From: Sphingobium sp.
GTDB lineage: Bacteria; Pseudomonadota; Alphaproteobacteria; Sphingomonadales; Sphingomonadaceae
Length of the DNA stretch: 64,000 nt
Reading direction: 5' to 3'
Assembly (NCBI GenBank): GCA_009360885.1
Contig: SPEL01000008.1
Location: 82,506-146,505, forward strand
Shown here: positions 7,350 to 47,035 of the stretch, in pieces
How positions within the stretch are numbered: the stretch's first letter is position 1
How the letters are laid out: every line of letters begins with the position of its first letter
The notes under the pieces: model-generated
Told to the model about the DNA's origin: nothing
Databases searched by the model: none
What the model saw: the letters and a program-made list of their open reading frames with translations, nothing else
Program-made: the position numbers and the translations under genes

Positions 7350-7479
7350 TTCATGCCCCCTGATTACACCATTTGCGGCAATAGATGCGCCGCCGAATCC
7401 GCTACCATGTGAATAACGCTTATGATAGTCATTCGCAATATATAATCAGCCAGTAAAATGCAAGACGGCACCCTGATGT

Positions 7480-24658: not shown

Positions 24659-24970
24659 ATCCGGCCTGTTGGAACAAAGGGGGCGGTGTCACGGGGGGAT
24701 CGCCAGTCGGAAACTGCTGGGCCATACCGAAAATGCCATGACAAACCGGCAGCGTTCGGCATAGTAAATGATGAAGGCAAACCGGACGCTCTCATAATAT
24801 CCGGGGGCTTTACTGTAAGCCTATGTAGGAATGATGACAGCGTGGCAGTGTCTGCCGCGATAATGGATGAACGGGCATGGTTCGTGTTGGCCGCTACACA
24901 GGCGGGGTTGGGGCGCATAGCATAGCAAATTATCAGCTTTGCGCAGAATATGGGGATTGGGAATCAGAGT
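24659..24970. other. 312-base divergent intergenic region
   Basis: This lies between the minus-strand deacetylase and the plus-strand dsbB-like gene. No gene, tRNA or strong inverted repeat was found. It should contain the promoters of both operons, but no clear -35/-10 pair could be picked. Confidence 0.4.
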
Positions 24971-25390
24971 ATGAATCAAATCATCACAGGCATATCCACC
25001 GCGGCGCTGAACCGAAAAATTGTCGGTTATTTCGTGCTGGCCGTTGTACTGTTTACTTTGACGGTTGATGTGCTGGGCCTTGTGCATCCCTGCCCCTATT
25101 GCCGGACGGAACGTGCCGCGCTGGGTATCTTGTCGATCATCCTTCTAACGCCCTATCATCACATGGTTGCGGCCCGCTATCTGGCGGCTTTGGCTGGTGT
25201 CTATGGTCTGATTGTCGGGGTGATGCAGAATTTCAACCATGTGAAGAAAATCAACAAGGGCGAATTTGACTGGTTTGCCTTGCGCTTTGACCATCCGTGG
25301 ATATTGTCCGGGTTGGCCGTTATGGCGATGATCTGGCTCTTGTTTCTGATTTTTGAACTTGCGAAACCATCCGCTGGCTCTGACACATAA
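24971..25390 (+). CDS. DsbB-like disulfide bond formation protein with only one Cys pair
   Basis: A small protein of about 139 residues with four membrane segments and a CPYC pair (HPCPYCRTERAALG). DsbB proteins reoxidise DsbA using quinone and normally have a second periplasmic Cys pair. The sequence after CPYC contains no cysteine at all, so this one could use a different electron path or partner. ATG at 24971 is preferred to that at 24950, which lies only 21 bases upstream. It is near the DsbD-like gene, 10 kb away, but not in its operon. Confidence 0.75.
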   Translation: MNQIITGISTAALNRKIVGYFVLAVVLFTLTVDVLGLVHPCPYCRTERAALGILSIILLTPYHHMVAARYLAALAGVYGLIVGVMQNFNHVKKINKGEFDWFALRFDHPWILSGLAVMAMIWLLFLIFELAKPSAGSDT

Positions 25391-25423: not shown

Positions 25424-25813
25424 ATGCCGCACCCTATTGCCCTCAAAATCAAGATTCAGCTGTATTGCGGGGATGAGATTGCAATGGGGCCGGGTAAGGC
25501 GGATCTGCTGGAGGCTATAGTGGAGCATGGCTCCATCTCTGCGGCTGGGCGGGCACTGGGGATGAGCTATCGCCGGACATGGATGCTGGTGGATGTGATG
25601 AACCGCACATGGCGGGACAGGCTGGTGGAGACTGTGGCAGGAGGCAGCCGTGAACGCGGTGCGCGGGTGACGGAAACCGGCCTTGCGGTGCTGGCGGCCT
25701 ATCGTGCTATGCAGGCGGCTGTGCGGGGCGCGGTGTCCCCCGTTGCCGATGCCGGACTGATGAAGTTGCTACGCGCAGAGCCTTTGCCGCAGGATATCCA
25801 CAAGCGCGCCTGA
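25424..25813 (+). CDS. ModE-type winged-helix DNA-binding protein without molybdate-binding domain
   Basis: A 129-residue protein that matches the N-terminal DNA-binding half of ModE (GKADLLEAIVEHGSISAAGRALGMSYRRTWMLVDVMNRTW, TETGLAVLAAYR). The C-terminal Mop domains that bind molybdate in full ModE are missing. It lies 33 bases after the dsbB-like gene on the same strand and 5 kb before the molybdenum-dependent formate dehydrogenase operon. A molybdate- or redox-linked role is plausible, but how it senses anything is unclear. Confidence 0.82.
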   Translation: MPHPIALKIKIQLYCGDEIAMGPGKADLLEAIVEHGSISAAGRALGMSYRRTWMLVDVMNRTWRDRLVETVAGGSRERGARVTETGLAVLAAYRAMQAAVRGAVSPVADAGLMKLLRAEPLPQDIHKRA

Positions 25814-25879: not shown

Positions 25880-26869
25880 CTATAGAGGCTTTCCACAGGC
25901 GCTGTCTGGCCGTGATAATTGCGGGTTTTTCATCAGATTTGTACCGGTCAGGCTGCGGAGAAATGCTGTTAATGCCGGCATATCATTGTCGGTGATTTGG
26001 GTGCCGGGATGACGGCGTATCGCGTCTTCCATCGTCGGGGATGTGCCATCATGCCAATAAGGGCCAGTGAGTGCGACATTGCGCAAAATGGGTGTGCGGA
26101 ACCGCCCCGCATCGTCTGCGCGGCCCGTTTGTTCGATCAGGCCGGGATCAGCGCTTTTCGCTGGTTCCAGCCGATGATAGTTCGCATCGGTGAAATTCGG
26201 ACCTTTATGACAGGCTGCACATCCTGCGTTTTTGAATGTGACCATGCCCTGTTTCGCCAGAGGGGATAGGGCGCTGTTTTCCCCCGTTAAATGCCGGTCA
26301 TAGGGGCTGTCATAGGATATCATCATGCGCTGAAATGCGCCCAACGATGCCGTAACGCTGGTAAAATCAATCTGGCCTTTGCGTTCAGGAAAGGCCTTGC
26401 GGAACATCTGGCGATAGCATTTGTTGGCGTTCAATCGCCGTGTTAGCTCGGCCTCCATATCCTTCATCCCCATCTCCAGCGGGTTTTCGCCGGTAAGGGG
26501 GATCATCGCTTGCTTCTCCAACGTCGTGGCGCTGGGGTCGGCATAAGTCAGGCGGGGCAGCCATGCGACATTGGCGAGGCCGGGCACATTGCGTTTGCCG
26601 GGCGTTTCATGCACGCCGGGTCGGGTCATATTACCATCGGCAAAGCCGCGCCTCTGCTCATGGCAGGATGCGCAGGACAAAGTACCATCCACCGAAAGGT
26701 CAGCATCGTAAAAGAGCAGGCGCCCCAGTTCCACTTTTGCGGCGGACATGGGATTATCAGCGGGCAAAGCGGGCGGCGCAATATATGCGGGGATGGGCCA
26801 TTGCCAGCCGGAAACGGAAACTCCCGCCGTTGTCAGCAGCGCGCCTGCTGCCAGTATGAGGGTTTTCAC
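25880..26869 (-). CDS. di-heme cytochrome c peroxidase / MauG family protein
   Basis: A 329-residue secreted protein with a signal peptide and two CXXCH haem motifs, at residues 66-70 (CASCH) and 217-221 (CAACH). It belongs to the bacterial cytochrome c peroxidase/MauG family, which reduces peroxide or oxidatively modifies a partner protein in the periplasm. It follows a small secreted protein by 10 bases and faces a TonB receptor, a layout recalling metal-uptake loci. The exact partner is unknown. Confidence 0.9.
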   Translation of the reverse strand: MKTLILAAGALLTTAGVSVSGWQWPIPAYIAPPALPADNPMSAAKVELGRLLFYDADLSVDGTLSCASCHEQRRGFADGNMTRPGVHETPGKRNVPGLANVAWLPRLTYADPSATTLEKQAMIPLTGENPLEMGMKDMEAELTRRLNANKCYRQMFRKAFPERKGQIDFTSVTASLGAFQRMMISYDSPYDRHLTGENSALSPLAKQGMVTFKNAGCAACHKGPNFTDANYHRLEPAKSADPGLIEQTGRADDAGRFRTPILRNVALTGPYWHDGTSPTMEDAIRRHPGTQITDNDMPALTAFLRSLTGTNLMKNPQLSRPDSACGKPL

Positions 26870-26879
26870 GGCAATATTT

Positions 26880-27428
26880 TCACGGCAGCTTGGTCACTAA
26901 TGCTGTGATGTTATTCGTTCCATTCCCGGCAATTTGCAGGACATAGTCACCGGGGGTGAGGGCGTAATCTACCATTTTACGAATGCCGGTGCAGGCCGGC
27001 CCGCGACCATGGTTGACGGATTGAGCGGATTTTCCGTCCTTCACCACATCCACCCATGCCCCGGCGCCGAGTGCAACGCGCCATGTCCCGGCTTCTTTCA
27101 CCGTGAAACTGGCGAGGCCGCCATGGCTGACGGAACCGCCCGGTTTTTCAGGACGCAGTGGATATTTGACGGACGGCGTGGGCAGCAGGGAAAGAGTGAA
27201 CGCCTGCCCCGGCGTGATCTTTACGGATGTTGCCGACTTGTTGTCCTTTGCGCCCTTTAATGCGGCGGGTGTGGCCCATGATTCCATGCCTTGCGGCAGG
27301 GGGGTGGGCTGGTCACATGTCTGCGTATCCGCATGATTATGTGCCATCATATCCTGAGAGAATGCAGGGCCAGCCATCAGTGACAAGGCACCGGCGCAGA
27401 CAAAAAGCATGGGCGATAAACTGGACAT
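26880..27428 (-). CDS. small secreted protein with His/Met-rich N-terminus, partner of the di-heme peroxidase
   Basis: A 182-residue protein with a signal peptide ending near PAFSQ. The mature N-terminus (MMAHNHADTQTC) has Met and His residues suited to copper or other metal binding. The rest is a beta-rich domain (FTVKEAGTWRVALGAGAWVDV, YALTPGDYVLQI) with a second Cys (GPACTG). I do not recognise a named family; similar proteins are sometimes mislabelled as homogentisate dioxygenase, and no such active site is visible here. ATG at 27428 is preferred to earlier in-frame starts that have no signal sequence. Confidence 0.7.
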   Translation of the reverse strand: MSSLSPMLFVCAGALSLMAGPAFSQDMMAHNHADTQTCDQPTPLPQGMESWATPAALKGAKDNKSATSVKITPGQAFTLSLLPTPSVKYPLRPEKPGGSVSHGGLASFTVKEAGTWRVALGAGAWVDVVKDGKSAQSVNHGRGPACTGIRKMVDYALTPGDYVLQIAGNGTNNITALVTKLP

Positions 27429-27453
27429 GAAGGCTTTCCTCTGCGGTGTAACA

Positions 27454-27473
27454 CTATATATGGCGCGATATAG
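27454..27473. promoter_or_regulatory. short inverted repeat in the divergent promoter region
   Basis: CTATAT (27454-27459) and ATATAG (27468-27473) form a 6 bp inverted repeat with an 8 base spacer, in the 79 base gap between the divergent secreted-protein gene and the TonB receptor. It could be an operator shared by both. The match is short and could be chance. Confidence 0.3.
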
Positions 27474-27507
27474 CGAATCGGATAACCATAGAGAAGGGGA
27501 AATATTG

Positions 27508-29658
27508 ATGCGCCGGACATTCGCGCTCTTACTGACATCTGCCTGTGCTATTGCGCCACTAACCGTGGCATTCGGTGCCCATGCCGAAGAAGCTGCCTCA
27601 TCATCGACGGATGATCGTTTTGCTCTCGGCCAGATTGTGGTGACAGCGCCGCGTCCCGAAGGGATTGCCATTAACGGTAGCACCCTGTCTTCAGATGCAA
27701 TTTATGTGTTCAGCCGTAATTCGCTGGATGATGCCGTTAACATAATGCCGGGCGTTTCCGCCGGGAATAGTGGTGGTACGCGCAATGAGCGGCTGATTTT
27801 CGTGCGCGGATTTGACCGGTTCCAGGTGCCGCTCTCTATCGATGGCATCCGCGTTTATTTGCCAGCCGATAACCGCCTCGATTTTGGCCGCTTTCTGACG
27901 ACCGACATCGCCGAAGTGCAGGTCGCCAAGGGCTATGCATCGGTGCTGGATGGTCCGGGCGCAATGGGTGGGGCGATTAACCTCGTCACGCGTAAGCCCA
28001 CCAAGGAGCTGGATATTGATGTGCGTGGCACGATCAATCTGGATGATGATGTCGATTATGCGGGCTATTCCACATCCGCGATGATCGGCACTAAGCAGGA
28101 TAAATGGTATGCGCAGGCCAGCTATGCCCGCAGCTTTACCGACCATTGGAACCTTCCCAATGACTTTACCGCCCGCGTACCAGCGCAGGAAGATGGCGGT
28201 GAGCGCGATTTCTCCCGCACCCGTGACTGGCGCGCCAATATTAAGCTTGGCTTCACCCCCAATGCGACCGATGAATATGCGATCAGCTATACAAAGCAAG
28301 ATGGCTCCAAGGGTGCCCCGCTGCACATCAGCGATACGGTAACAACGCCGCGTTACTGGGATTGGCCGAAGTGGGAAATCCAGAATCTCTATTTCCTCTC
28401 CACCACCGCATTGGGAGATCGCGCGACCCTCAAGACCCGCGCTTATTATAATCAGTTTGATTCCATGCTGCGCTCTTTCAATGATCGCACACAAACCACG
28501 CAAAGCCGTGGTTATGCGTTTGATAGCCCTTATTGGGATAAGGCATGGGGCGGGTCTGCCCAGCTTGATTTCAAGGCAAGCGAGGCTGATACGCTGCGCC
28601 TTGCATTCCATTATCGCCATGATGAGCATGTCGAGGCGCAGACTGGCTTTGGTACTGGTGTTGGTGTCGTCGAACCAAAACAGACCCAGTCAGAGAACAC
28701 CTATTCCTTCGCGCTGGAAAATGAACTTGCGATCACCGATGCGCTGCGTTTCACCATTGGCGGCAGCTATGACTGGCGTGAATTAAACCGCGCCGAAGAA
28801 TATGGTTCGCCACTTGGTACCGATGGGCCAGCGACATTGTTTAGCTATCCGAAGCGTAATGCCGATACATGGAATGCACAGGGTCGCCTCGACTGGCAGG
28901 TGGATGATGCACTATCGCTGCATGCTAGTGTTTCTTCGCGCGCCCGTTTTCCGACCATCTTTGAACGGTTCAGCCAGCGTTTTCAGCAGGCCATTCCTAA
29001 TCCGGATCTGAAGGCCGAACGCGCCACCAATGTTGAAATTGGCGGTAGCTGGGCTGGCGAACGTGTCAGCTTTGAGGCGGCTGCATTCTATAGCCATGTT
29101 GAAGATGCGATCTTCGGTGTTCAGGTGTCGGGTTATCCCTGCACCGCGTCCACCACGCCGCCTGCAACGCCAACTCCGGGCTGTGAACTGCGTAATATGA
29201 CGCAGAGCCGCAATGTCGGCAGCGGCGATTATTATGGTGTCGAATTCGCCGGTGCGGTTACGATCCTGCCGGGCGTTGACCTCGGCGCCAATTACACATG
29301 GGTAAAGCGTGATCTGACCTATCGTGGCAGCGGCAATTTCCGCATGACCGGGGTGCCGACGCATAAGGGCTTTGTCTATCTGAACTGGGCCGTTACGGAC
29401 CGTTTGAAGATCGTACCGAATGCCGATCTGGCATCGAACCGCTGGACATTGTTCACCGCCACCCCGGCGGGGCAGGCGGCCCGTTATTACCGTACCGGCG
29501 CTTATGCGAATATCGGCATAAGGGCGGATTATGCGGTGACGGATCAGATTGAGCTGGGCGTCGGTGCCAAGAATCTGCTGGATGATTATTATGTGCTGAC
29601 CGATGGTTTCCCGGAACAGGGGCGGTCATTCTTTGCCAGCATCCGGGTGAAATATTAA
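27508..29658 (+). CDS. TonB-dependent outer-membrane receptor (metal-type locus)
   Basis: About 716 residues from the ATG at 27508, which has GAAGGGGA upstream; the longer frame to 27409 overlaps the divergent gene. Signal peptide, then a TonB-box-like QIVVTAPR, a plug domain (RGFDRFQVPLSIDGIRVYL, VAKGYASVLDGPGAMGGAIN) and a barrel ending ASIRVKY with aromatic C-terminal Tyr. It has no STN domain. The paired peroxidase and His/Met-rich protein suggest a metal or metal chelate as cargo; that is inference. Confidence 0.9.
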   Translation: MRRTFALLLTSACAIAPLTVAFGAHAEEAASSSTDDRFALGQIVVTAPRPEGIAINGSTLSSDAIYVFSRNSLDDAVNIMPGVSAGNSGGTRNERLIFVRGFDRFQVPLSIDGIRVYLPADNRLDFGRFLTTDIAEVQVAKGYASVLDGPGAMGGAINLVTRKPTKELDIDVRGTINLDDDVDYAGYSTSAMIGTKQDKWYAQASYARSFTDHWNLPNDFTARVPAQEDGGERDFSRTRDWRANIKLGFTPNATDEYAISYTKQDGSKGAPLHISDTVTTPRYWDWPKWEIQNLYFLSTTALGDRATLKTRAYYNQFDSMLRSFNDRTQTTQSRGYAFDSPYWDKAWGGSAQLDFKASEADTLRLAFHYRHDEHVEAQTGFGTGVGVVEPKQTQSENTYSFALENELAITDALRFTIGGSYDWRELNRAEEYGSPLGTDGPATLFSYPKRNADTWNAQGRLDWQVDDALSLHASVSSRARFPTIFERFSQRFQQAIPNPDLKAERATNVEIGGSWAGERVSFEAAAFYSHVEDAIFGVQVSGYPCTASTTPPATPTPGCELRNMTQSRNVGSGDYYGVEFAGAVTILPGVDLGANYTWVKRDLTYRGSGNFRMTGVPTHKGFVYLNWAVTDRLKIVPNADLASNRWTLFTATPAGQAARYYRTGAYANIGIRADYAVTDQIELGVGAKNLLDDYYVLTDGFPEQGRSFFASIRVKY

Positions 29659-30677: not shown

Positions 30678-30769
30678 ATCATAAATTTCTTCGATTTGAC
30701 CTGAAACCCCGTATAACAGCAAAATATGCTGATAGGTTGCCGCCAAATATAATCAGACGGCTATATATA

Positions 30770-31243
30770 ATGAACGGGATAAACGGGCAGATGGATGAAG
30801 TGATAGAGGCGTGGACCACGCGATATGGCGCAACGCGTGACCAGTTGCTGCCTATGCTCCATGCCATTCAGGAAGAAGCAGGCTATGTGGATGATGCGCT
30901 GGTCCCGGTGATTGCCAAGGCGCTCAACATCAGCCGCGCCGATGTGCATGGCGTCATCACCTTCTATCATGATTTCCGCCGCACCCCGCCGGGCAAGCAT
31001 ATGGTCAAAATTTGCCGCGCTGAAAGCTGCCAGTCTCGTGGTGGCGCGAAAATAGAGGCTGCCGCAGCACAGCGTCTCGGCGTGGCGATGGGTGAAACCC
31101 GCGCTGACGGGCAGATCAGCCTTGAGGCGGTATACTGCCTTGGCCTGTGTGCTACTGGCCCCAATGCGATGGTTGATGGCCGCCCGATTTCCCGCGTGGA
31201 TGAAAAAGTGCTGGATCGTATCGCGCAGGAGGTTGCAGCATGA
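30770..31243 (+). CDS. fdsG: NAD-dependent formate dehydrogenase gamma subunit (NuoE-like)
   Basis: A protein of about 157 residues carrying a thioredoxin-like [2Fe-2S] domain like NuoE. The four cluster cysteines are in CRAESC and CLGLC. It passes electrons in the soluble FdsGBA formate dehydrogenase. The start is uncertain: ATG at 30770 or 30791 (MDEVIEAWTTRYG), neither with a strong ribosome site; a TTG at 30737 is also open. Its TGA overlaps the ATG of fdsB, so translation is coupled. Confidence 0.93.
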   Translation: MNGINGQMDEVIEAWTTRYGATRDQLLPMLHAIQEEAGYVDDALVPVIAKALNISRADVHGVITFYHDFRRTPPGKHMVKICRAESCQSRGGAKIEAAAAQRLGVAMGETRADGQISLEAVYCLGLCATGPNAMVDGRPISRVDEKVLDRIAQEVAA

Positions 31244-32859
31244 GCGGCGCGAACGAGACGAATAAGGCGAAGGTCTATATCAGCCGTGACATGGCCTCTG
31301 TCGCCCTTGGCGCGGATGATGTTGCCCGCGCCTTTGCCGATGCCGGGTGCGACGTCGTCCGCACCGGATCACGCGGCCTTTTCAACATCGAGCCATTGGT
31401 TGAAGTGGAGACGGCGCAAGGGCGTATCGGCTATGGTCCGGTCTGCGCCGATGATGTTACCACCGTGCTGGATGGCAGCCACGCCAACCGACTGGGTAAA
31501 GTGGAGGAGCTTCCCTTTTTCGCCAGCCAACAGCGGTTTACCTTCGCGCTGTGCGGTGTAATTGATCCTGTCAGTCTGGATGATTATGCGGCTAACGGCG
31601 GCTGGAACGGCCTTATGCTGGCGCGCAGCATGGCTCCGCAGCAGGTGGTTGATGCGGTGAAGGCATCCGGCTTGCGCGGGCGCGGCGGTGCGGGTTTCCC
31701 CACCGGCATTAAGTGGCAGACAGTGCATGATGCTCCTGCAGGCGATAAATATGTCGTTTGCAATGCCGATGAAGGCGACAGCGGCACTTTCGCCGACCGT
31801 ATGCTGATGGAAGGCGACCCTTATTGCCTGATCGAGGGTATGGCGATTGCGGCCTATGCTGTGGGTGCGCACCACGGCTATATCTATACCCGCAGCGAAT
31901 ATCCCTTTGCCATTGATACGATGAAGGAGGCCATCAGGCGCTCTGCTCATATCATCGCACCCTTTACGCTGGAGGTGCGCGACGGTGCGGGCGCTTATGT
32001 GTGTGGTGAGGAAACGGCTCTTCTCGAAAGCATAGAGGGCAAGCGCGGGCAAGTGCGGGCCAAGCCGCCGCTTCCGGCGCTGGAGGGGCTGTTTGGGATG
32101 CCCACCGTCATCAACAATGTGCTGTCCATCGCGGCGGTGCCGTTCATCCTCTCCAAGGGGGCGGAGGCCTATGCGAATGTGGGCTTTGGCCGGTCCCGTG
32201 GCACCATGCCGGTGCAGATCGCGGGCAACGTCAAAAATGGCGGCCTGTATGAAATCGGCTTTGGCATTACGCTGGGCGAATTGGTGATGGATATTGGCGG
32301 TGGCACCGAAAGTGGCCGCCCGGTTCGCGCCGTTCAGGTGGGTGGGCCATTGGGTGCCTATTTCCCGCCGGAAATGTTTCATCTGCCGTTCGATTATGAG
32401 GAATTTGCGAAAGCTGGTGGCCTCATTGGTCACGCAGGTATCACCGTATTTGATGATACGGTGGACATGGCCCATATGGCGCGCTTTGCGATGGAATTTT
32501 GTGCGGCGGAAAGCTGCGGCAAATGCACGCCCTGCCGCATTGGTTCGACGCGCGGGGTGGAGGTGATGGACCGCATCATTGCCGCCCGTGACGAACAAAC
32601 CGCCGAAACCGCATCCCTCGGAGGAGGCGCGGGCTATCTGGCGAAGGCGCTTTATTCGCGTTCGCCTAGCCGCATCGATACCGGCATAGAGGCGCAGACG
32701 CAGTTGCTGCGCGATCTTGCCGATACGATGAAGTTTGGATCTTTGTGCGCTCTTGGTGGGTTTACCCCTTATCCGGTGCTGAGCGCTCTTGATTATTTCC
32801 CCGAAGATTTTGGCGCGCCGGGAACGGATAACGCGCCCCATAAAGAAGCAGCGGAGTAA
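31240..32859 (+). CDS. fdsB: NAD-dependent formate dehydrogenase beta subunit (NuoF-like)
   Basis: A 539-residue flavoprotein that reduces NAD. An N-terminal ferredoxin/thioredoxin-like part of about 100 residues is fused to the NuoF core. FMN site GLRGRGGAGFPTGIKW (145-160), NADH site NADEGDSGTF (175-184), and [4Fe-4S] ligands at 426, 429, 432 (SCGKCTPC) and about 503 (SLCALGG) are visible. The ATG overlaps the end of fdsG. A 507-residue frame on the opposite strand is only its shadow. Confidence 0.96.
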   Translation: MSGANETNKAKVYISRDMASVALGADDVARAFADAGCDVVRTGSRGLFNIEPLVEVETAQGRIGYGPVCADDVTTVLDGSHANRLGKVEELPFFASQQRFTFALCGVIDPVSLDDYAANGGWNGLMLARSMAPQQVVDAVKASGLRGRGGAGFPTGIKWQTVHDAPAGDKYVVCNADEGDSGTFADRMLMEGDPYCLIEGMAIAAYAVGAHHGYIYTRSEYPFAIDTMKEAIRRSAHIIAPFTLEVRDGAGAYVCGEETALLESIEGKRGQVRAKPPLPALEGLFGMPTVINNVLSIAAVPFILSKGAEAYANVGFGRSRGTMPVQIAGNVKNGGLYEIGFGITLGELVMDIGGGTESGRPVRAVQVGGPLGAYFPPEMFHLPFDYEEFAKAGGLIGHAGITVFDDTVDMAHMARFAMEFCAAESCGKCTPCRIGSTRGVEVMDRIIAARDEQTAETASLGGGAGYLAKALYSRSPSRIDTGIEAQTQLLRDLADTMKFGSLCALGGFTPYPVLSALDYFPEDFGAPGTDNAPHKEAAE

Positions 32860-32865
32860 GCCCAG

Positions 32866-35712
32866 ATGACCTTCACCCGCGAAACTGACCACGGAACACC
32901 CGCCGCCATCAACACCGGCAAAACGGTCAACGTGACCATTGATGGTCAGAGCGTCTCCATGCCCGAAGGCACCAGCATCATGCGCGCGGCCTCTCTCATC
33001 GGTGGTTCTATCCCTAAATTATGCGCAACCGACCATGTAAAGAGTTTCGGCTCCTGCCGTCTTTGTCTGGTTGAGGTGGAGGGTCGCAATGGCTTCCCGG
33101 CATCCTGCACCACGCCGGTGGCGGAAGGCATGGTCGTGCGCACCCAGACAGAGCGGCTGAAGCAGCTTCGCCGGGGTGTGATGGAGCTTTATATCTCCGA
33201 TCACCCGCTCGATTGCCTTACCTGTGGGGCCAATGGTGACTGCGAGCTTCAGGAACAGGCCGGCGCCGTGGGCCTGCGGGATGTGCGCTATGGCTATGAT
33301 GGTGCGACGAATATGGGGCAGGCTAAGGACCAGTCCAACCCCTATTTCGATTTTGACCCCAGCAAGTGCATTGTCTGCTCTCGCTGCGTGCGGGCGTGCG
33401 AAGATGTGCAGGGGACGTTCGCCCTCACTATCGAGAATAAGGGTTTTGAATCGAAGGTCTCCCCATCGCAGGGTGAGGCTTTTCTGGGGTCTGAATGCGT
33501 ATCCTGCGGGGCGTGCGTTCAGGCTTGCCCGACAGCATCCCTCATCGAGAAAAAGGTGGTGGAGGTCGGCACGCCTGACCGCAGCGTTGTGACCACCTGC
33601 GCTTATTGCGGCGTGGGTTGCACCTTCCGCGCCGAGATGCGCGGCGAAGAACTGGTGCGCATGGTGCCATGGAAAGAGGGGAAGGCCAATCGCGGCCATA
33701 GCTGCGTCAAGGGCCGCTTCGCATGGGGCTATGCCCAGCATCAGGACCGTATCCTTAACCCGATGATCCGCGAAAGCGTCGATCAGCCATGGCGCGAAGT
33801 GTCATGGGAAGAGGCCATCGCCCATACCGCGTCAGAATTCCGCCGGATACAGGCGAAATATGGCGTGCGCAGCATTGGCGGCATTACATCCAGCCGGTGC
33901 ACCAATGAGGAAACCTTCCTCGTGCAAAAGCTCATCCGTCAGGGCTTTGGCAATAACAATGTCGATACCTGTGCGCGGGTGTGCCATTCGCCCACCGGCT
34001 ATGGCCTCAGCCAGACATTCGGTACGTCGGCAGGGACGCAGGATTTCGACAGCGTGATGCAGTCCGATGTCATCCTCGTCATCGGTGCGAATCCGACGGA
34101 TGGCCACCCGGTATTCGCCAGTCGCATGAAGCAGCGTCTGCGTCAGGGCGCGAAGCTGATCGTAGTCGATCCGCGCCGGACGGACCTTGTAAAATCCCCC
34201 CGTATTGAGGCGGAGCATCATCTGCCGTTGCGCCCCGGCACCAATGTTGCGGTGATGACGGCAATGGCGCATGTTATCGTCACCGAAAAACTCTATGACG
34301 AAGCCTTCATCCGTGAACGCTGTGATTGGGACGAGTTTCAAGACTGGGCGGATTTCGTATCAGAATCCTCTCGTTCTCCCGAAGCTGTTGAGCCACTGAC
34401 CGGCGTGAACCCGCAGGAACTGCGCGCAGCCGCGCGTCTCTATGCCACCGGCGGTAATGGCGCGATTTATTACGGCCTTGGCGTGACGGAGCATTCGCAA
34501 GGTTCCTCTACCGTGATGGCCATTGCGAACCTTGCGATGGCAACCGGCAATATCGGGCGCGAAGGCGTTGGGGTTAACCCACTGCGCGGCCAGAATAATG
34601 TGCAGGGTGCCTGTGACATGGGCAGCTTCCCGCATGAATTTTCCGGCTATCGTCATGTGTCGGATGATGCGACGCGCAGCCTGTTTGAAAAAACATGGGG
34701 CGTTGAACTGTCCGCCGAACCGGGCCTGCGCATTCCCAATATGCTGGATGCGGCAACCGATGGCACATTCAAGGGCCTGTTTGTGCAGGGTGAGGATATT
34801 TTGCAATCCGACCCCAATACCCATCATGTTGCTGCGGGCCTCGCGGCGATGGAATGCGTGGTGGTGCAGGATTTGTTCCTCAATGAAACCGCCAATTATG
34901 CGCATGTGTTCCTGCCGGGTTCGACCTTCCTTGAAAAGGACGGAACCTTCACCAATGCCGAACGCCGCATACAGCGGGTGCGCAAGGTGATGGCACCGCT
35001 TAACGGCTATGCCGACTGGGAAATTGTGCAATTGGTTGCCCGCGCTATGGGCCTCAACTGGGATTATACGCACCCGTCGCAGATCATGGATGAAATTGCG
35101 GCGCTCACCCCGACCTTTACCGGCGTGCATTATGATCGTCTGGATGAAGAAGGTTCGCTCCAGTGGCCCGCCAATGATGCAGCCCCTGATGGTACGCCTA
35201 CCATGCATATTGGCGGTTTCGTACGCGGTAAGGGCAAGTTCGTCGTTACCGATTATGTGCCGACGGATGAGAAAACCGGCCCGCGTTTCCCGTTACTGCT
35301 GACCACCGGGCGCATCCTCAGCCAATATAATGTCGGCGCGCAGACACGCCGCACCGACAATACCGCATGGCACCCTGAAGATTTGCTGGAAATCCATCCG
35401 CTGGATGCTGAAAATCGCGGCATTAAGGAAGGGGATTGGGTCAGCCTGAAAAGCCGCGCAGGGGAAACCACATTGCATGCCCATATTACCGAGCGTGTTG
35501 CGCCAGGCGTCGTTTATACGACTTTCCATCATCCGGATACGCAGGCCAATGTCATTACCACCGATTTCACCGACTGGGCGACCAATTGCCCGGAATATAA
35601 GGTGACGGCGGTTCAGGTGAACCTGTCTAACGGGCGGCCCAGCGACTGGCAGCAGGATTATAATGAGCAGGCTCGGATGAGCCGCCGTATCGAGACGGAG
35701 GCGGCGGAGTAA
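32866..35712 (+). CDS. fdsA: formate dehydrogenase alpha subunit, molybdenum catalytic subunit
   Basis: A 948-residue soluble molybdopterin oxidoreductase that oxidises formate to CO2. Iron-sulfur ligands visible: [2Fe-2S] C53, C64, C67, C81; His113 with C117, C120, C126; [4Fe-4S] C168, C171, C174, C178; C211, C214, C217, C221; and C245, C248, C252, C280. The molybdenum ligand is a cysteine, about 373, in ARVCHSPTG, so no selenocysteine is needed. The molybdopterin-binding domain and C-terminal dinucleotide-binding domain are complete. It starts six bases after fdsB. Confidence 0.97.
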   Translation: MTFTRETDHGTPAAINTGKTVNVTIDGQSVSMPEGTSIMRAASLIGGSIPKLCATDHVKSFGSCRLCLVEVEGRNGFPASCTTPVAEGMVVRTQTERLKQLRRGVMELYISDHPLDCLTCGANGDCELQEQAGAVGLRDVRYGYDGATNMGQAKDQSNPYFDFDPSKCIVCSRCVRACEDVQGTFALTIENKGFESKVSPSQGEAFLGSECVSCGACVQACPTASLIEKKVVEVGTPDRSVVTTCAYCGVGCTFRAEMRGEELVRMVPWKEGKANRGHSCVKGRFAWGYAQHQDRILNPMIRESVDQPWREVSWEEAIAHTASEFRRIQAKYGVRSIGGITSSRCTNEETFLVQKLIRQGFGNNNVDTCARVCHSPTGYGLSQTFGTSAGTQDFDSVMQSDVILVIGANPTDGHPVFASRMKQRLRQGAKLIVVDPRRTDLVKSPRIEAEHHLPLRPGTNVAVMTAMAHVIVTEKLYDEAFIRERCDWDEFQDWADFVSESSRSPEAVEPLTGVNPQELRAAARLYATGGNGAIYYGLGVTEHSQGSSTVMAIANLAMATGNIGREGVGVNPLRGQNNVQGACDMGSFPHEFSGYRHVSDDATRSLFEKTWGVELSAEPGLRIPNMLDAATDGTFKGLFVQGEDILQSDPNTHHVAAGLAAMECVVVQDLFLNETANYAHVFLPGSTFLEKDGTFTNAERRIQRVRKVMAPLNGYADWEIVQLVARAMGLNWDYTHPSQIMDEIAALTPTFTGVHYDRLDEEGSLQWPANDAAPDGTPTMHIGGFVRGKGKFVVTDYVPTDEKTGPRFPLLLTTGRILSQYNVGAQTRRTDNTAWHPEDLLEIHPLDAENRGIKEGDWVSLKSRAGETTLHAHITERVAPGVVYTTFHHPDTQANVITTDFTDWATNCPEYKVTAVQVNLSNGRPSDWQQDYNEQARMSRRIETEAAE

Positions 35713-35717
35713 GGGAT

Positions 35718-35954
35718 ATGAGCCACGACGACAGCGAGATCATGTCCACCGGCGACCGGTTGATTTATATGGCCAACCAGATTGCGAAAAACCTTGCGGC
35801 GCGGGGCGATGAAGAGGCGATAGGGATTACCGCTGACCACATTAAAGCCTATTGGGACCCATTGATGCGTAGCCGTGTTGCGGACTTGCTTGCCCAGCGT
35901 TCCGACGAATTCTCGCCTATCGCGGCGGAGGCGGTGCGCCGGATACATTCTTGA
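35718..35954 (+). CDS. fdsD: formate dehydrogenase delta subunit
   Basis: A 78-residue protein (MANQIAKNLAARGDEEAIGI, HIKAYWDPLMRSRVADLL) matching the small FdsD subunit of NAD-linked formate dehydrogenases. It probably helps assembly or stability of the complex. It begins five bases after fdsA with TAAGGG as ribosome site, and its stop overlaps the fdhD start. Confidence 0.92.
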   Translation: MSHDDSEIMSTGDRLIYMANQIAKNLAARGDEEAIGITADHIKAYWDPLMRSRVADLLAQRSDEFSPIAAEAVRRIHS

Positions 35955-36760
35955 ACGAAGATAATCTGTTGCATGATGTTACCTGCAAGCTGACGTTTAA
36001 CCGCCTGACGCCTGATGGTTGCGAGCAGGTGGTTGAGCGGCCTCTGGCAGAAGAAGTACCAATAGCGGTGGAGTTTAACGGCATTGGTTACGCCGTGCTG
36101 ATGGCGACGCCGGATCATATTGATGATCTGTTATTGGGTTTTGCGCTGGCGGAACGGCTGATCGGGCCGGGGGATGCTGCCTTCGCGGTGGAGGCCCACC
36201 GAACGGAGCAGGGCGTGATAGCCCGTGCTAATCTGTCTGTTGACCGTGTAGATAGCTTGTTTGACCGGGTGCGGCATAGGGCGTCGGAATCCTCCTGTGG
36301 CCTCTGTGGCATTGAAAATCTGGAACAGGCAATACGTCCTTTATCGCCCGTAACGGCGCGGTCAGAGGCCAGCCGGGCTGCGATTTTCCGGGCGTTGGGT
36401 GATTTGCGTGGGCATCAGCATTTGAACGCCGCAACCGGGGCGGTCCACGCGGCGGCCTGTGTATCGGCGGATGGAGCAATTCGGTTGGTGCGGGAAGATG
36501 TCGGGCGGCATAACGCCTTTGATAAGCTGATCGGTGCGATGAAACGGGCCGACATAGGTTGGGATGGCGGCTTTGCTTTGCTGTCGTCGCGCTGTTCTTA
36601 TGAACTGGTGGAAAAGGCGGTGCTGGCGAATTGTCCGTTGCTCGTCACTATATCCGCGCCCACGGCATTGGCGACGCAAAGGGCAGAGGATGCGGGCCTG
36701 CCCATTATCGTTCTGGCGCGTAGCGATGCTGTGCTGGCGCGCGGGGCCGAGGTGCTGTAA
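35951..36760 (+). CDS. fdhD: FdhD / FdsC sulfur-transfer protein for formate dehydrogenase
   Basis: A 269-residue protein that carries sulfur from a cysteine desulfurase to the molybdenum cofactor of formate dehydrogenase, which is needed for activity. The conserved CxxC pair is at 116-119 (SSCGLCG), and GAVHAAA and VREDVGRHNAFDKLIG are family hallmarks. It uses a TTG start at 35951 inside a TTGA overlap with fdsD; no ATG in frame fits. Its place after fdsD, not between fdsA and fdsD, differs from the fdsGBACD order known elsewhere. Confidence 0.93.
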   Translation: MNEDNLLHDVTCKLTFNRLTPDGCEQVVERPLAEEVPIAVEFNGIGYAVLMATPDHIDDLLLGFALAERLIGPGDAAFAVEAHRTEQGVIARANLSVDRVDSLFDRVRHRASESSCGLCGIENLEQAIRPLSPVTARSEASRAAIFRALGDLRGHQHLNAATGAVHAAACVSADGAIRLVREDVGRHNAFDKLIGAMKRADIGWDGGFALLSSRCSYELVEKAVLANCPLLVTISAPTALATQRAEDAGLPIIVLARSDAVLARGAEVL

Positions 36761-36770
36761 GGGGAGCGCC

Positions 36771-37025
36771 ATGGCACAGCAGAAGATTTATTTTTTTGGG
36801 CGACTTGCCGAGCAATTAGGCCGCAGTCGTGAAGTGGAGATGGTGGAGGAACCGATCACCATCCGTGATTTGCGTGTTGCCCTTGCCGCGCAGGCGGTGG
36901 ATTTCGCCGATGCCTTAGTTGACCCGCGTGTTCGTGCCTGCGTGGATGGTGTGATTGTTACCGATGATGCGCTGGTGCGCGCTGGGCAGGAAATCGCCTT
37001 CATCCCGCCCTTGTCGGGGGGCTGA
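36771..37025 (+). CDS. moaD: molybdopterin synthase small subunit
   Basis: An 84-residue ubiquitin-like sulfur carrier ending in Gly-Gly (PPLSGG), which is thiocarboxylated and donates sulfur to make molybdopterin. It starts 10 bases after fdhD. The chosen ATG at 36771 begins MAQQKIYFFGRLAEQLG; the upstream frame to 36564 lies inside fdhD and is rejected. Confidence 0.95.
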   Translation: MAQQKIYFFGRLAEQLGRSREVEMVEEPITIRDLRVALAAQAVDFADALVDPRVRACVDGVIVTDDALVRAGQEIAFIPPLSGG

Positions 37026-37029
37026 GGAT

Positions 37030-37506
37030 ATGGCCATCACTATTCGCCTTGAGCCAGAAAATCTGCAACCGGATGCCGAATTGCGCGCTTTCATCACCAG
37101 CTTGAACGGTGATGGTGCGGTCGTCAGCTTTACCGGCCTGATGCGCCCGACCAGCAAGGAAGGGGAGGCGTTGACCGGCCTGTTTCTTGACCATTATCCC
37201 GGCATGACGGAACGCAGCATTTCTGACATAGCCACGGATGCGGCGGCGAAATTTGCGGTAGAGGATATACTTATCATTCATCGCTGCGGCCTAGTGCTTC
37301 CCGGTGCGGCGATTGTGTTTGTGGCGACGTCCTCCCCCCATCGTCGGGCGGCGTTTGAGGCCGCGGATTATCTGATGGACCGCCTCAAAAGTGATGCTGG
37401 TTTCTGGAAACGCGAAGACACGGCCACGGGTTCGCACTGGATAGAACCAACGGCGCAGGACGCCAAAGACAAAGAACGCTGGAGCAACATACATGCCGGG
37501 AATTGA
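37030..37506 (+). CDS. moaE: molybdopterin synthase large subunit
   Basis: A 158-residue enzyme that joins with MoaD to turn cyclic pyranopterin into molybdopterin. The conserved VVSFTGLMR, HRCGLVLPGA and KREDTATGSHWIEP with its catalytic lysine are visible. ATG at 37030 has GAGG four bases before it and follows moaD by four bases. The 3' end overlaps moaB/mog by 14 bases. Confidence 0.95.
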   Translation: MAITIRLEPENLQPDAELRAFITSLNGDGAVVSFTGLMRPTSKEGEALTGLFLDHYPGMTERSISDIATDAAAKFAVEDILIIHRCGLVLPGAAIVFVATSSPHRRAAFEAADYLMDRLKSDAGFWKREDTATGSHWIEPTAQDAKDKERWSNIHAGN

Positions 37507-38029
37507 TGAAAGTCTGCAATTTTACCCCCTCAATATCGCGGTTCTGACGGTTTCCGATACGCGGGATGAGGCAAGCGACCGTAGCGGGGCGCTGTTGGTG
37601 GAGCGGCTGACCGGCGCGGGGCATGTCCTTGCGGGCAAGGCGATCGTCACCGATGATGTGGACGCCATCCGTGCGCAGGTGAAGGTGTGGGTGGCGGATG
37701 AGGCGGTTGATCTCGTCATCAGCACCGGCGGCACTGGTTTTGCCCCACGCGATGTGACGCCAGAGGCGGTAAAGCCACTGTTCCGCCGTGAAATGGATGG
37801 GTTTTCGGTGGTGTTCCATCAGGCCAGCCTTGGCACAGTCGGCGTTTCCACCTTGCAATCCCGCGCCTTTGCGGGGCAGGCGGAGGACACCTTCGTATTC
37901 TGCCTGCCGGGTTCGACCGGCGCGTGCAAGGATGGGTGGGATCTCGTCCTCTCGCTGGAACTGGACAGCCGCTATCGCCCCTGTTCTCTCGCGGGGCAGA
38001 TACCGCGTCTACGGCATCTGTGCGCATGA
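37493..38029 (+). CDS. MogA/MoaB family molybdenum cofactor protein
   Basis: A 178-residue protein with the MogA/MoaB fold: [18 protein letters not shown] and [16 protein letters not shown] are the substrate-binding loops. It adenylates molybdopterin before molybdenum insertion by MoeA. It overlaps moaE by 14 bases and moaC by four, so translation is coupled. Whether it is moaB or mogA by name cannot be told, but the function is the same. Confidence 0.93.
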
Positions 38030-38529
38030 GCAGACTGACGCATCTGGATGAGGCGTCCCGTCCCCGCATGGTTGATGTGGGGGATAAGGATGTGACCCGG
38101 CGCACGGCAGAGGCGCGGGGGCGACTGCGGTGCAGCGCAGAGGCTCTGGCGTTGGTGCTGGCGGGGAAGGCCCCCAAGGGCAGCGTCATCAATACGGCAG
38201 AAATTGCGGGCATCATGGCTGCCAAGCGCACGCATGAGCTGATCCCGCTCTGCCATCCGCTCGCCTTATCGGGCGTCAAGCTTGTGATAGAACCGGATGA
38301 GACTTTGCCCGGTTTTCATGTGCGTGCCAGTGTCAAGCTGACCGGAAAAACCGGGGTGGAGATGGAGGCGCTAACCGCGGTCAGTGTCGCGTGTCTTACC
38401 CTCTACGATATGTTAAAAGCGGTCGATAAGCATATGATAATAGAGAATATTGATGTGATTGCAAAATCCGGTGGCCGCTCTGGTGACTGGACGGTTGATG
38501 ACAATAATATGGCTGCGACCTCATGCTGA
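38026..38529 (+). CDS. moaC: cyclic pyranopterin monophosphate synthase
   Basis: A 167-residue enzyme that forms cyclic pyranopterin phosphate from the MoaA product. It shows [33 protein letters not shown] and the C-terminal KSGGRSG. ATG at 38026 overlaps the moaB/mog stop; the longer frame to 37924 has no ribosome site. Ends inside the start of moeA. Confidence 0.96.
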
Positions 38530-39707
38530 ATTATGAAGAAGCCCTCGCGCTCGTGGTTGACCTCGCAAAGCCTCTGGGCGCGGAGGATGTGTCTTTGTCC
38601 TCCGCCAATCGCCGGGTGCTGGCCGCGCCGCTCATTTCACGGGTTTCTTCCCCTCCGGCGGATGTTTCCGCTATGGATGGCTATGCTGTGCGTGACGCTG
38701 ACCTTGCCGAAACACGGAGCTTCCGCCTGATAGGCGTATCCTATCCCGGCACGGGTTTTGCGGGGAGTGTGGGGCAGGGTGAAGCCGTGCGTATTTTCAC
38801 CGGCGCGCCTATACCCGATGGCGCTGACCGTGTGCTGGTGCAGGAAATCATCACGCGGGATGGCGATGATGTTCAGGTGACGGGGGAATGGGGAAAAGCC
38901 CGCCATATCAGGCTTATGGGCAACGACTTTAAGGCCGGTGATGAGATATTGCCTGCTGGTTGTCCCCTCAACGCGCGCTCTATCGTCGCGGCGGCGGGGG
39001 CAGACCGGGCGGTGCTGAGCGTGTGGCGGCAACCCAGAGTAGCGATCATTGGCACCGGTGATGAACTGGTGGAGCCGGGCAGCGCCGCTGAAACAGCGGG
39101 GCATATCCCCGACAGCCTGTCTTATGCTATTGCCGCTTTTGCCGAGGAACAGGGCGCAGTTCCCGTCAGCCGTCAGCGCTGCGGCGATAACCCGGAAATG
39201 ATGAAGGCCATGGCCGCGCAGGCGTTGGCGCAGGCCGATGTGGTCGTCATTACTGGCGGCGCATCGGTGGGGGAAAAGGATTTTTCCAAAGGGGCTTTTG
39301 CAGCTTTGGGCGCGGAGATGATTTTCTCTAAGGTAGCAATCAAACCCGGAAAGCCGGTATGGCTGGCGCGGGTGGGGGATAGGCTGGTGCTTGGCCTTCC
39401 CGGCAACCCGACATCGGCGTTGGTGACGGCGCGGTTGTTCCTCGCGCCGTTGCTGGCGGGATTGGGCGGGCGTGACCCCAATGGGGTGACTTTATGGCGG
39501 TCCGTCCCTGCCGCGCAGTCTTTGCCCGCAGGCGGTGACCGTGAAACCTTCGTTCGGGCTATCCTCGCCGATGGCAAAGTCTCTGCACTCCGCAATCAGG
39601 ATAGCGGGGCGCAACAGGCATTGGCGCAGGCCGGGGTGTTGATACGAATGGCGGTGGATGCGCCGCCCGTCGCAGCGGGCGAAACCGTGCAGATATTGGA
39701 CCTATAA
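38523..39707 (+). CDS. moeA: molybdopterin molybdotransferase
   Basis: A 394-residue enzyme that inserts molybdate into adenylated molybdopterin. Hallmarks are [14 protein letters not shown] near residue 45, [26 protein letters not shown] and [11 protein letters not shown]. It overlaps moaC by 7 bases. It acts with the MogA/MoaB protein encoded two genes upstream. Confidence 0.96.
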
Positions 39708-39725: not shown

Positions 39726-40466
39726 ATGGATCCTATTACGCTTATCAGCATCATGGTCTTGTTCGCTTTGGCGGCGGCCCTTTATTCCAGCGTCGGCCAT
39801 GGCGGGGCATCGGCGTATCTCGCCATCATGGCGTTGTTCGCGATACCGGCGATGACGATGCGCCCCACGGCGCTCACCATGAATCTGCTGGTCGCGGGGT
39901 TCGCCACCTATCGTTATGTGAAGGCGGGGGAATTTAACCCGCGCCTGTTCCTCTCCTTTGCGGTGACGGCGGTGCCTTTCGCCTATCTGGGCGGCACCAT
40001 CCATATTCCGCCGGAAATATACCGTCCGCTGGTGGGTATCGTGCTGTGGTGTGCGGCGCTGCACTTGCTGTTCAAATCCCGCATCATTGCGGGGCGTCCG
40101 GGCAAGATTCCGCCTCTCTATATTACCCTGCCAGTCGGGGCGGCTCTGGGCTTCCTTGCCGGGTTGACGGGCACAGGTGGCGGGATATTCCTCAGCCCGA
40201 TCATCCTCGTGCTGGGATGGGCGCAGCCGCGCGTGACATCCGGCGTGGCGGCGGCGTTCATTCTTGTGAACTCCATCGCCGGGCTCGCGGGCAACGTGGC
40301 GGCTATTCAATCTTTGCCGCCTGAACTGCCCTATTTCCTTTTTGCTGCCGGTGCGGGTGCATTGCTGGGTGTATGGCTGGGCGTGCGGCGCCTGCCGCAG
40401 CATCAACTGGCGCAATTATTGGGGCTGGTGCTGCTGGTCGCGGGCTGGAAGCTGCTGTTTACATGA
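39726..40466 (+). CDS. TauE/SafE family membrane transporter, embedded in the cofactor operon
   Basis: A 246-residue membrane protein with about eight hydrophobic segments (ALAAALYSSVGHGGASAYLAIMALF, GAALGFLAGLTGTGGGIFLSPIILVLG) typical of the TauE/SafE family, which exports sulfite or sulfonate-related anions. It starts 18 bases after moeA and its stop overlaps the mobA start, so it is expressed with the cofactor genes. Substrate here might be sulfite, formate or molybdate-like anions; none is shown by the sequence. Confidence 0.88.
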   Translation: MDPITLISIMVLFALAAALYSSVGHGGASAYLAIMALFAIPAMTMRPTALTMNLLVAGFATYRYVKAGEFNPRLFLSFAVTAVPFAYLGGTIHIPPEIYRPLVGIVLWCAALHLLFKSRIIAGRPGKIPPLYITLPVGAALGFLAGLTGTGGGIFLSPIILVLGWAQPRVTSGVAAAFILVNSIAGLAGNVAAIQSLPPELPYFLFAAGAGALLGVWLGVRRLPQHQLAQLLGLVLLVAGWKLLFT

Positions 40467-41041
40467 CACTGGCGGTGGTCATTTTGGCGGGCGGAGACGG
40501 CGCGCGCATGGGCGGGGATAAGCCCTTGCGCCTGCTGTCTGGCCGTAGCCTGATGGACCATATGATAGACCACGCCCGTAAATATTCCGCGACCGTTGCT
40601 ATTTCCCTGCGTCATCAGGGGCAGTTTGCGGTGCCGGATGATGTGGCCATTATCGAGGATAGAGAGGGCGAAGGGCCGGTGGCGGGTCTGATGGCGGCGG
40701 GCCGGTTTGCGCAGGATGCTGGGTGCGATAGGGTGCTGACTCTCCCTTGTGACACGCCCTTTGTTCCCGACGATCTGGTTGAGCGGTTGTCGGCGGCGCT
40801 CTCTCCCGTTCATAATGCTGCTTTGGCAATGAGCGGCGGGAGGCTTCACCCGGTTTGCGGCCTGTGGCGTAGTGATGCATTGGCGCAGGCGGAAATGGTG
40901 CCGGGCGGGGCGCTAAGGCATTTCGCTGCGCAACTGGGCTATGCTATAGCGGAATGGAACGCGGAACCTTTTGACCCTTTCCTGAATATAAATCATCAGG
41001 ATGATTTGGTGATAGCAGAGCGCCTATGTCGAACCAATTGA
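40463..41041 (+). CDS. mobA: molybdenum cofactor guanylyltransferase
   Basis: A 192-residue enzyme that attaches GMP to molybdopterin to make the guanine-dinucleotide form that FdsA-type enzymes use. The nucleotide-binding start LAVVILAGGDGARMGGDKPL and TLPCDTPFVPDD are characteristic. ATG at 40463 overlaps the stop of the transporter gene by four bases. It overlaps moaA by 16. Confidence 0.95.
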   Translation: MTLAVVILAGGDGARMGGDKPLRLLSGRSLMDHMIDHARKYSATVAISLRHQGQFAVPDDVAIIEDREGEGPVAGLMAAGRFAQDAGCDRVLTLPCDTPFVPDDLVERLSAALSPVHNAALAMSGGRLHPVCGLWRSDALAQAEMVPGGALRHFAAQLGYAIAEWNAEPFDPFLNINHQDDLVIAERLCRTN

Positions 41042-42015
41042 TAGATGGCTTTGGCCGCCATATCACTTATGTGCGCCTGTCGGTGACGGACCGTTGCGAT
41101 TTGCGCTGTCGCTATTGCATGTCCGAAAAAATGCAGTTCGTGCCGCGTAATGAGCTGCTGAGCCTGTCCGAATTGGCGGACCTCTCTGCCATCCTTATCG
41201 GGCGCGGGGTGCGCCGTATTCGCCTGACGGGCGGGGAGCCACTGGTCCGGCGTAATATCCTCAAGCTGGTGGAGGATATTGGCGCGCATATCGGGCAGGG
41301 GCTGGACGAAGTCACTCTCACCACTAATGGCACGCAATTGGGGGCTATGGCTCAGCCCCTCTACGATGCCGGGGTACGGCGGGTGAATGTCAGTCTGGAT
41401 AGCCTGAAGCCCGAACAATTCCGTATGATTACCCGCAATGGTGATCTGGCACAGGTGCTTGCGGGCCTTGATGCGGCGGGGCAGGCTGGGCTGAAGGTCA
41501 AGATCAACATGGTCGCCCTCAAAGGTATGAATGAGGATGAGATAGAGCCGATGCTGCGCTGGTGCGGTGCGCAGGGGCATGAACTGACCCTCATAGAGGC
41601 AATGCCGCTGGGCGAAACTGGCGAGGACCGGACCGACCATTATATGCCGCTGGATGCGGTGCGGGATACTTTGGCGCGCCAGCATATGCTCGTACCGACG
41701 CTTCATCGCACGGGTGGTCCGGCGCGCTATTATGATGTGCCGGAATTGGGGACGCGCATTGGCTTCATCACGCCCCATAGCAATAATTTCTGCACAGGTT
41801 GCAACCGCATCCGCATTACCGCGACCGGCACGGTATTCGGTTGTCTGGGGCAGGACCAGCAGATTGACCTGCGCGATATCATGCGCAGCGAAGGCGTCGA
41901 TGGCGTTAACCGGATATTGGATGCGGTGATGATCGCCAAGCCCAAGGGGCATGATTTCGACATTGGCACCAATCGCCCAGCCGTGGCGCGACATATGAGC
42001 GTTACGGGCGGTTAA
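41026..42015 (+). CDS. moaA: GTP 3',8-cyclase, radical SAM
   Basis: A 329-residue radical-SAM enzyme for the first step of molybdenum cofactor synthesis. The N-terminal cluster is bound by C24, C28 and C31 (CDLRCRYC), the C-terminal cluster by C256, C259 and C273 (NFCTGCNRIRITATG...C). The C-terminal Gly-Gly is present. It is the last gene of the operon; a small hairpin lies 70 bases downstream. Confidence 0.97.
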   Translation: MSNQLIDGFGRHITYVRLSVTDRCDLRCRYCMSEKMQFVPRNELLSLSELADLSAILIGRGVRRIRLTGGEPLVRRNILKLVEDIGAHIGQGLDEVTLTTNGTQLGAMAQPLYDAGVRRVNVSLDSLKPEQFRMITRNGDLAQVLAGLDAAGQAGLKVKINMVALKGMNEDEIEPMLRWCGAQGHELTLIEAMPLGETGEDRTDHYMPLDAVRDTLARQHMLVPTLHRTGGPARYYDVPELGTRIGFITPHSNNFCTGCNRIRITATGTVFGCLGQDQQIDLRDIMRSEGVDGVNRILDAVMIAKPKGHDFDIGTNRPAVARHMSVTGG

Positions 42016-43205: not shown

Positions 43206-43271
43206 AGCCACGATACCGCAATAATTTCCCTTCCTTTTCCGTAATTTTCATACTCTGAAGGACCATTTACC

Positions 43272-46025: not shown

Positions 46026-46125
46026 TCCTTAAGCCGATGATATGACAGGGAAAGGCGATATGGGCTTATGTGTCTCTTGCGCTTTTCCCTGTTTCGGGAA
46101 AATCAGAAATATTTCGAGGATGAGC

Positions 46126-46992: not shown

Positions 46993-47035
46993 GGCGGGTT
47001 CCGGGCCTGACCAGCCATCTGGCCGCCAGACCTAA

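Follow-up and report, generated by a model that had tools for sequence, protein, structure and literature searches.

We analysed a 64,000-nucleotide stretch of DNA from Sphingobium sp. (contig SPEL01000008.1, positions 82,506 to 146,505 of the forward strand; hereafter the window), in which genes for a di-heme protein, a small secreted protein and a TonB-dependent receptor form a compact trio between positions 25880 and 29658. The trio is flanked by a gene for a ModE-type regulator (25424-25813) and contains a ModE-type operator in its divergent gap, and formate dehydrogenase and molybdenum-cofactor genes lie downstream; an earlier note that drew attention to the trio had recorded none of these three features. 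The main features are:

25424-25813, forward strand: ModE-type DNA-binding protein, helix-turn-helix only, 129 amino acids, flanking the trio
25880-26869, reverse strand: MbnH/MauG-like di-heme c-type cytochrome, GTG start, 329 amino acids
26880-27428, reverse strand: secreted small protein, 182 amino acids, ATG at 27428, apparently sharing an operon with the di-heme gene
27450-27477, no strand assigned: predicted ModE-type operator between the divergent genes, with its dyad core at 27452-27475
27508-29658, forward strand: TonB-dependent receptor, 716 amino acids, ATG at 27508

The gap between the small-protein and receptor genes is exactly the 79 bases previously given, counted between the start codons at 27428 (reverse) and 27508 (forward), and 10 bases separate the small-protein gene from the di-heme gene. 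The MauG-type assignment of the di-heme protein was confirmed by its match to Pfam CCP_MauG (156.7 bits, cut-off 25.6; E = 8.7e-46) and by two CxxCH haem motifs at residues 66 and 217, a combination that places it in the broad MbnH/MauG type. The receptor contains both a Plug (4.9e-15) and a barrel domain (6.2e-39) above the Pfam cut-offs, as expected for a TonB receptor, and the N-terminus of the small protein resembles a signal peptide by eye, in line with its predicted secretion. Its description as His/Met-rich had to be dropped: of the 158 residues of the mature form, four are His and four Met (2.5% each), and relatives do not conserve the MMAHNH cluster singled out at its start.

The regulator aligns over residues 21-106 with TIGR00637 (68.1 bits, E = 5.4e-19), and its closest solved chain is PDB 2ijl, annotated as 'Molybdenum-binding transcriptional repressor' (3.9e-18). 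Single-domain, DNA-binding-only ModE genes are described in Desulfovibrio in the available excerpt of PMC545781, where their sensing is unclear. The same excerpt gives the E. coli ModE consensus as ATCGNTATATA-N6-TATATANCGAT, and positions 27450-27477 match 16 of its 20 bases, the sole site in the window with at least 16 of 20. We relied on this literature consensus as the independent test, a dyad pattern derived from the site itself being circular. Taken alone, the window-wide match is weak (one match, 0.17 expected, reached in 16 of 100 shuffles). The dyad is conserved in the gap, at up to three mismatches, at 29 of 30 receptor loci, and across 22 distinct windows the mean frequency of the top base is 0.85 within the site, compared with 0.61 and 0.60 on its two sides. 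Sites with zero or one mismatch number 28 in our list, of which 18 lie at the trio receptor type, five at a second receptor family and two at modABC/modBC-like genes, leaving three unexplained (G035, G020 and G078 contig 8).

Recurrence of the trio in other genomes, a check named in the earlier note, was established by comparing 33 loci, including the window itself (L001); many of these stretches are short, and several named contigs come from strains that also appear under G handles. The receptor adjoins the small protein at 30 of the 33, and the di-heme gene is present at 26 of these 30, which exceeds a chance association; a ModE gene lies inside the retrieved stretch at 15 of the 33. Thirteen loci stem from named genomes, with eight from Sphingobium and one from Novosphingobium. 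Across 61 genomes of the genus, 24 encode a trio-type small protein, defined by a score of at least 110 bits, a threshold chosen to set it apart from a stand-alone paralogue that scores 60-80 bits and lies at mutL in L113. The receptor is found at 23 of these 24 loci (partial in G068, absent in G075), the di-heme gene at 19 (split in G083; absent in G014, G001, G075, G034 and G068) and ModE, within the fetched stretch, at 13. The more constant core is therefore receptor plus small protein, and lineages can do without the di-heme gene. Beyond the genus, 38 of 296 genomes of the order match the small-protein alignment, many of them through the stand-alone paralogue, and 20 regions were inspected. 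G238 combines ModE, di-heme protein, small protein and receptor with a weak site, and G039, from another family, has ModE, the receptor, two sites and a small-protein match, with no di-heme gene. G271 carries the small protein and di-heme protein with neither receptor nor site; G214 carries receptor and small protein with no site.

The trio depends on ModE at the level of whole genomes. All 24 genus genomes with a trio-type small protein contain ModE, versus 18 of the 37 without one (Fisher p = 8e-6); adding G079 and the truncated G070 gives a table of 25, 1, 17 and 18 (p = 5e-5). The operator shows the same dependence at the molybdate transporter genes. A matrix trained on trio operators only (20 distinct sites) was applied to 30 of the 53 genomes with modA, and in a first scan 11 of the 30 modA loci scored above the shuffle maximum. 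Because one of the earlier matches (L118) fell downstream of modA, the test was confined to 260 bases around the modA start. Sites at the 99% null level were then found in 14 of 20 genomes with ModE versus 0 of 10 without (p = 3e-4), and sites above the maximum of 1200 random sequences in 10 of 20 versus 0 of 10 (p = 0.011). The operator motif thus follows the trio-associated ModE. Direct linkage with modABC is also observed: an exact site precedes modA-modB-modC-modE in G066; a single stretch of G017 (L112) holds receptor, small protein, di-heme protein, modC, modB, modA and modE; and G068 (L194) shows the order modE, modABC, small protein, partial receptor. Overall, modE lies at most about 2 kb from modA in 8 of 42 genomes with ModE.

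From these observations we conclude that the trio is probably a ModE-controlled cell-envelope module that scavenges molybdenum, possibly tungsten. The proposal that the trio serves metal uptake thus remains plausible, with copper or iron probably the wrong metal, since flanking regulator, operator, co-occurrence and gene neighbourhood all indicate molybdenum. With ample molybdenum, ModE would occupy the palindrome between the divergent genes and keep both silent; scarcity of the metal would allow expression of the receptor and of the operon for small protein and di-heme protein. The TonB-driven receptor would then carry its cargo, either molybdate or a molybdenum-chelate complex, into the periplasm, from where an inner-membrane transporter such as ModABC would take over. 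In the periplasm the small protein might handle the cargo or help to release it, with the di-heme protein serving as an accessory oxidant that modifies the small protein or acts on the imported complex; both roles are speculative, as is metal sensing by a ModE of the kind found here, without a molybdate-binding domain. An anionic cargo is suggested by the 29 invariant H/C/M/W/R/K/Y positions in 27 receptors, 19 of them Arg and two Lys, with neither Cys nor Met, a count for which there is no baseline.

Passage of molybdenum through the outer membrane is usually ascribed to porins, and to our knowledge this crossing is rarely asked about and little studied. A ModE-controlled TonB receptor, if true, would make the outer-membrane step testable in culturable Sphingobium and reveal what one of the many uncharacterised receptor types of sphingomonads does. 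In a partial literature search, covering titles and the openings of abstracts, we found no published report of a ModE-regulated TonB receptor. The string 'molybd' is absent from a review of TonB systems (PMC11658791), whose silence is uninformative because 'copper' and 'nickel' are absent from it too, and from a review of sphingomonad receptors (PMC7142613).

The di-heme protein scores 283.1 bits over residues 36-285 with the MbnH model TIGR04039, below the curated cut-off of 362.85, and its closest solved chain is PDB 6e1c, a 'Di-heme enzyme' (4e-66) that we take to be MbnH. At L104 (5934-8003) the di-heme gene is interrupted by a transposase-like open reading frame (6413-7411), and small protein, operator and receptor are intact. 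For the small protein, NCBIfam gave no match and Pfam none above cut-off. MbnP was considered as its identity and rejected: as the earlier note had surmised, it is unlike MbnP, with no match to TIGR04052 (MbnP_like_WxW) at E up to 1 and no WxW in any of 24 relatives. The four conserved Cys of MbnP as a partner protein are not found either, 22 of the 24 relatives having two Cys and the other two having one, counted after residue 20. W51, W125, H140, C146, R150 and K151 are kept in all 24 and C38 in 23; position 116 is Trp in 18, Tyr in four and Val in two. Its AlphaFold2 model is a beta sandwich (mean pLDDT 86.2) with a weak likeness to the collagen-binding domains of collagenases (E = 7.3e-5; query-based TM 0.43), from which we draw no functional inference. 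Profile comparison with PDB chains revealed no sequence similarity to any solved chain, and no MopE or CorA entry is among the 50 fold matches listed. The stand-alone paralogue is encoded at 8147-8677 of L113, where it follows a mutL-like gene (by eye) and where no receptor or di-heme relative was found, and also occurs in L019 and L020.

Modification of the small protein by the di-heme protein, as first suggested for this pair, is a conjecture made reasonable by analogy, since a MauG-type enzyme acting on an exported partner is known for copper (CorB and CorA, in the part of PMC3912023 available). A more specific version, in which the MbnH-like enzyme of a ModE-controlled TonB molybdenum importer oxidises a residue of the small protein and thereby builds a site that handles molybdate or tungstate, is tentative and in our view rather doubtful. 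Such a system would be the molybdenum counterpart of the copper pairs CorA/CorB and MbnP/MbnH, and the candidate residues would be Trp51 and Trp125, invariant in the 24 relatives, or the Trp/Tyr at position 116. Both W51 and W125 are also retained in the stand-alone paralogues of L019, L020 and L033, which have no di-heme neighbour, and this argues against retention for modification alone. A ModE-controlled TonB receptor would also suggest that MauG-like di-heme/partner pairs serve metals besides copper.

Several results weigh against a ModE-controlled molybdenum module. The regulator scores below the TIGR00637 cut-off of 98.5 and by Pfam consists of HTH_1 alone, and so differs from a full-length ModE with helix-turn-helix and molybdate-binding domains. 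G079, a genome about 80% complete, has the receptor and small protein (94 bits) and no ModE that we could find, and the Fisher p values overstate independence because the genomes are related. Judged by eye, the genus-wide operator pattern occurs about as often as its reversed control once two mismatches are allowed; with three allowed, the E. coli core turns up at nine places in the window's own genome and the control at 20. A clear gap operator is absent in G034, G081 and G068 among the 24 trio-type genomes, and a search of the 79-base gap for a sigma-70-like promoter found none. No formate dehydrogenase gene was found at the 12 other named 18-kb trio loci, so the link of this enzyme to the trio is local. 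Neither modA nor modB was found in the window's own genome (2.93 Mb in 8 contigs, 79.6% complete). Finally, when the model of the receptor (mean pLDDT 69.8, with a poorly modelled plug) is compared with known structures, the copper transporter OprC takes ranks 1-23 and FrpB and siderophore receptors come next, with identity of about 15% throughout.

The OprC matches are shared with a competing explanation, namely a copper (or iron) uptake module like MbnT/MbnH/MbnP or CorA/CorB, with ModE next to it by chance or as a secondary feature. MbnH-type enzymes are the closest matches of the di-heme protein; pairs of this type often adjoin a receptor (PMC3621798, in excerpt), and copper binding by CorA/MopE relies on a kynurenine formed by oxidation of Trp (PMC3912023, likewise). 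We nevertheless regard a copper or iron module as quite unlikely: it leaves the ModE-type operator, the co-occurrence with ModE in 24 of 24 genomes and the adjacency to modABC unaccounted for, the 27 receptors share no invariant Cys or Met, residues that together with His form the copper site of OprC, the identity to OprC is low, and the small protein fails the MbnP models and resembles no solved chain in sequence. The receptor also scores only 47.3 bits with the copper-receptor model TIGR01778 (cut-off 472.45).

Control by ModE could also be real and the cargo different, the receptor bringing in something else that low molybdenum makes necessary (for instance iron, heme or copper to supply substitute enzymes); alternatively, the di-heme protein would serve peroxide defence. 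A regulon reveals control and not substrate, and the best NCBIfam models for the receptor, all below cut-off, are heme and siderophore receptors. This explanation appears unlikely, given that the same operator type lies upstream of modA and of two more receptor families in this genus, which would fit one substrate class, and that modABC adjoins the set in G017 and G068. Tungstate in place of molybdate seems very improbable as the cargo. Related systems take up oxyanions of both metals (PMC5517513, in the part available), and the neighbouring moaA, moaC, moaE, moeA and mobA serve both and do not discriminate, but the adjacent transporter genes are modABC by model.

Comparison with known systems suggests that the trio is most likely a new form of TonB-dependent uptake under a metal regulator, accompanied by an MbnH-like pair; the cited articles were available to us in excerpt. 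The likeness to the receptor, di-heme and partner sets of methanobactin loci, noted previously, holds: as in MbnT/MbnH/MbnP (PMC3621798), receptor, MbnH-like di-heme protein and small secreted partner lie side by side, with partner and di-heme genes adjacent. Unlike that set, the trio has no MbnP match or WxW, stays below the MbnH cut-off, and has a ModE-type regulator and operator in a molybdenum gene neighbourhood. No methanobactin biosynthesis genes were recognised among the window's open reading frames that were read, a reading that included no search aimed at these genes. CorA/CorB and MopE/SACCP (PMC3912023) share a small exported protein co-transcribed with a MauG-like di-heme protein and are metal-repressed, but the metal is copper, and the trio's small protein lacks profile similarity to PDB chains.

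On the side of regulation, a parallel is Caulobacter ZnuK, ZnuL and ZnuM (PMC4176598), where a metal regulator governs TonB receptors together with an ABC importer; there the metal is zinc and the regulator Zur, and the excerpt mentions no di-heme/partner pair. ModABC with ModE (PMC545781) has an operator of the same architecture upstream of modABC, but concerns the inner-membrane step, and the Desulfovibrio motif differs. An outer-membrane step for molybdate is described for the T6SS-ModA-IcmP system of Pseudomonas aeruginosa (PMC8602904), in which IcmP is a metalloproteinase outer-membrane protein and not a TonB receptor. Molybdenum-siderophore complexes of diazotrophs are said to pass outer-membrane receptors (PMC10780190), whereas a receptor under a ModE operator, a di-heme protein or a partner is not described in that excerpt.

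Two further TonB receptor families carry a ModE-type operator in front and often lie beside modE. TBDR2 is represented by L094, L095, L096, L097, L102 (where the receptor is in pieces), L105, L145 and L151, and TBDR3 by L101. Both are candidate molybdenum receptors and, being under the same operator, offer further test cases. Good operator-like sites with no queried module or mod gene nearby were seen in G020 contig 18 at about 2930 (L146) and G078 contig 8 at about 202853 (L148).

Downstream of the receptor the window continues with a LysR gene, fdsG, fdsB, fdsA, fdhD, moaE, moaC, moeA, a TauE/SafE permease gene, mobA and moaA; the fdsB reading frame matches NuoF models below cut-off. The molybdenum-related genes, all on the forward strand, are:

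30737-35712, forward strand: formate dehydrogenase fdsG, fdsB, fdsA, a molybdenum enzyme whose membership of the module is not proven (NF004638 over cut-off; TIGR01591 947 bits, over cut-off)
35951-36760, forward strand: fdhD (TIGR00129 144.5 bits, cut-off 140.9)
36955-37506, forward strand: moaE (PF02391 107.5 bits, cut-off 23.4)
37924-38529, forward strand: moaC (TIGR00581 over cut-off)
38523-39707, forward strand: moeA (NF007960 284.5 bits, below cut-off 440; TIGR00177 over cut-off)
40373-41041, forward strand: mobA (TIGR02665 118.5 bits, below cut-off 151.85)
41026-42015, forward strand: moaA (TIGR02666 355 bits, cut-off 284)

The TauE/SafE permease (PF01925; 39726-40466) inside the molybdenum-cofactor cluster is a possible inner-membrane oxyanion permease. 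Directly upstream of the ModE gene, 24950-25390 encodes a DsbB-like membrane protein (PF02600, 24.2 bits, cut-off 22.1). Further along, 42162-50032 holds two glycerophosphodiester phosphodiesterase-like genes, the second recognised by eye at 46042-46992, together with a pair of large TonB receptors, of which one carries an STN domain, and is perhaps a phosphodiester-scavenging locus.

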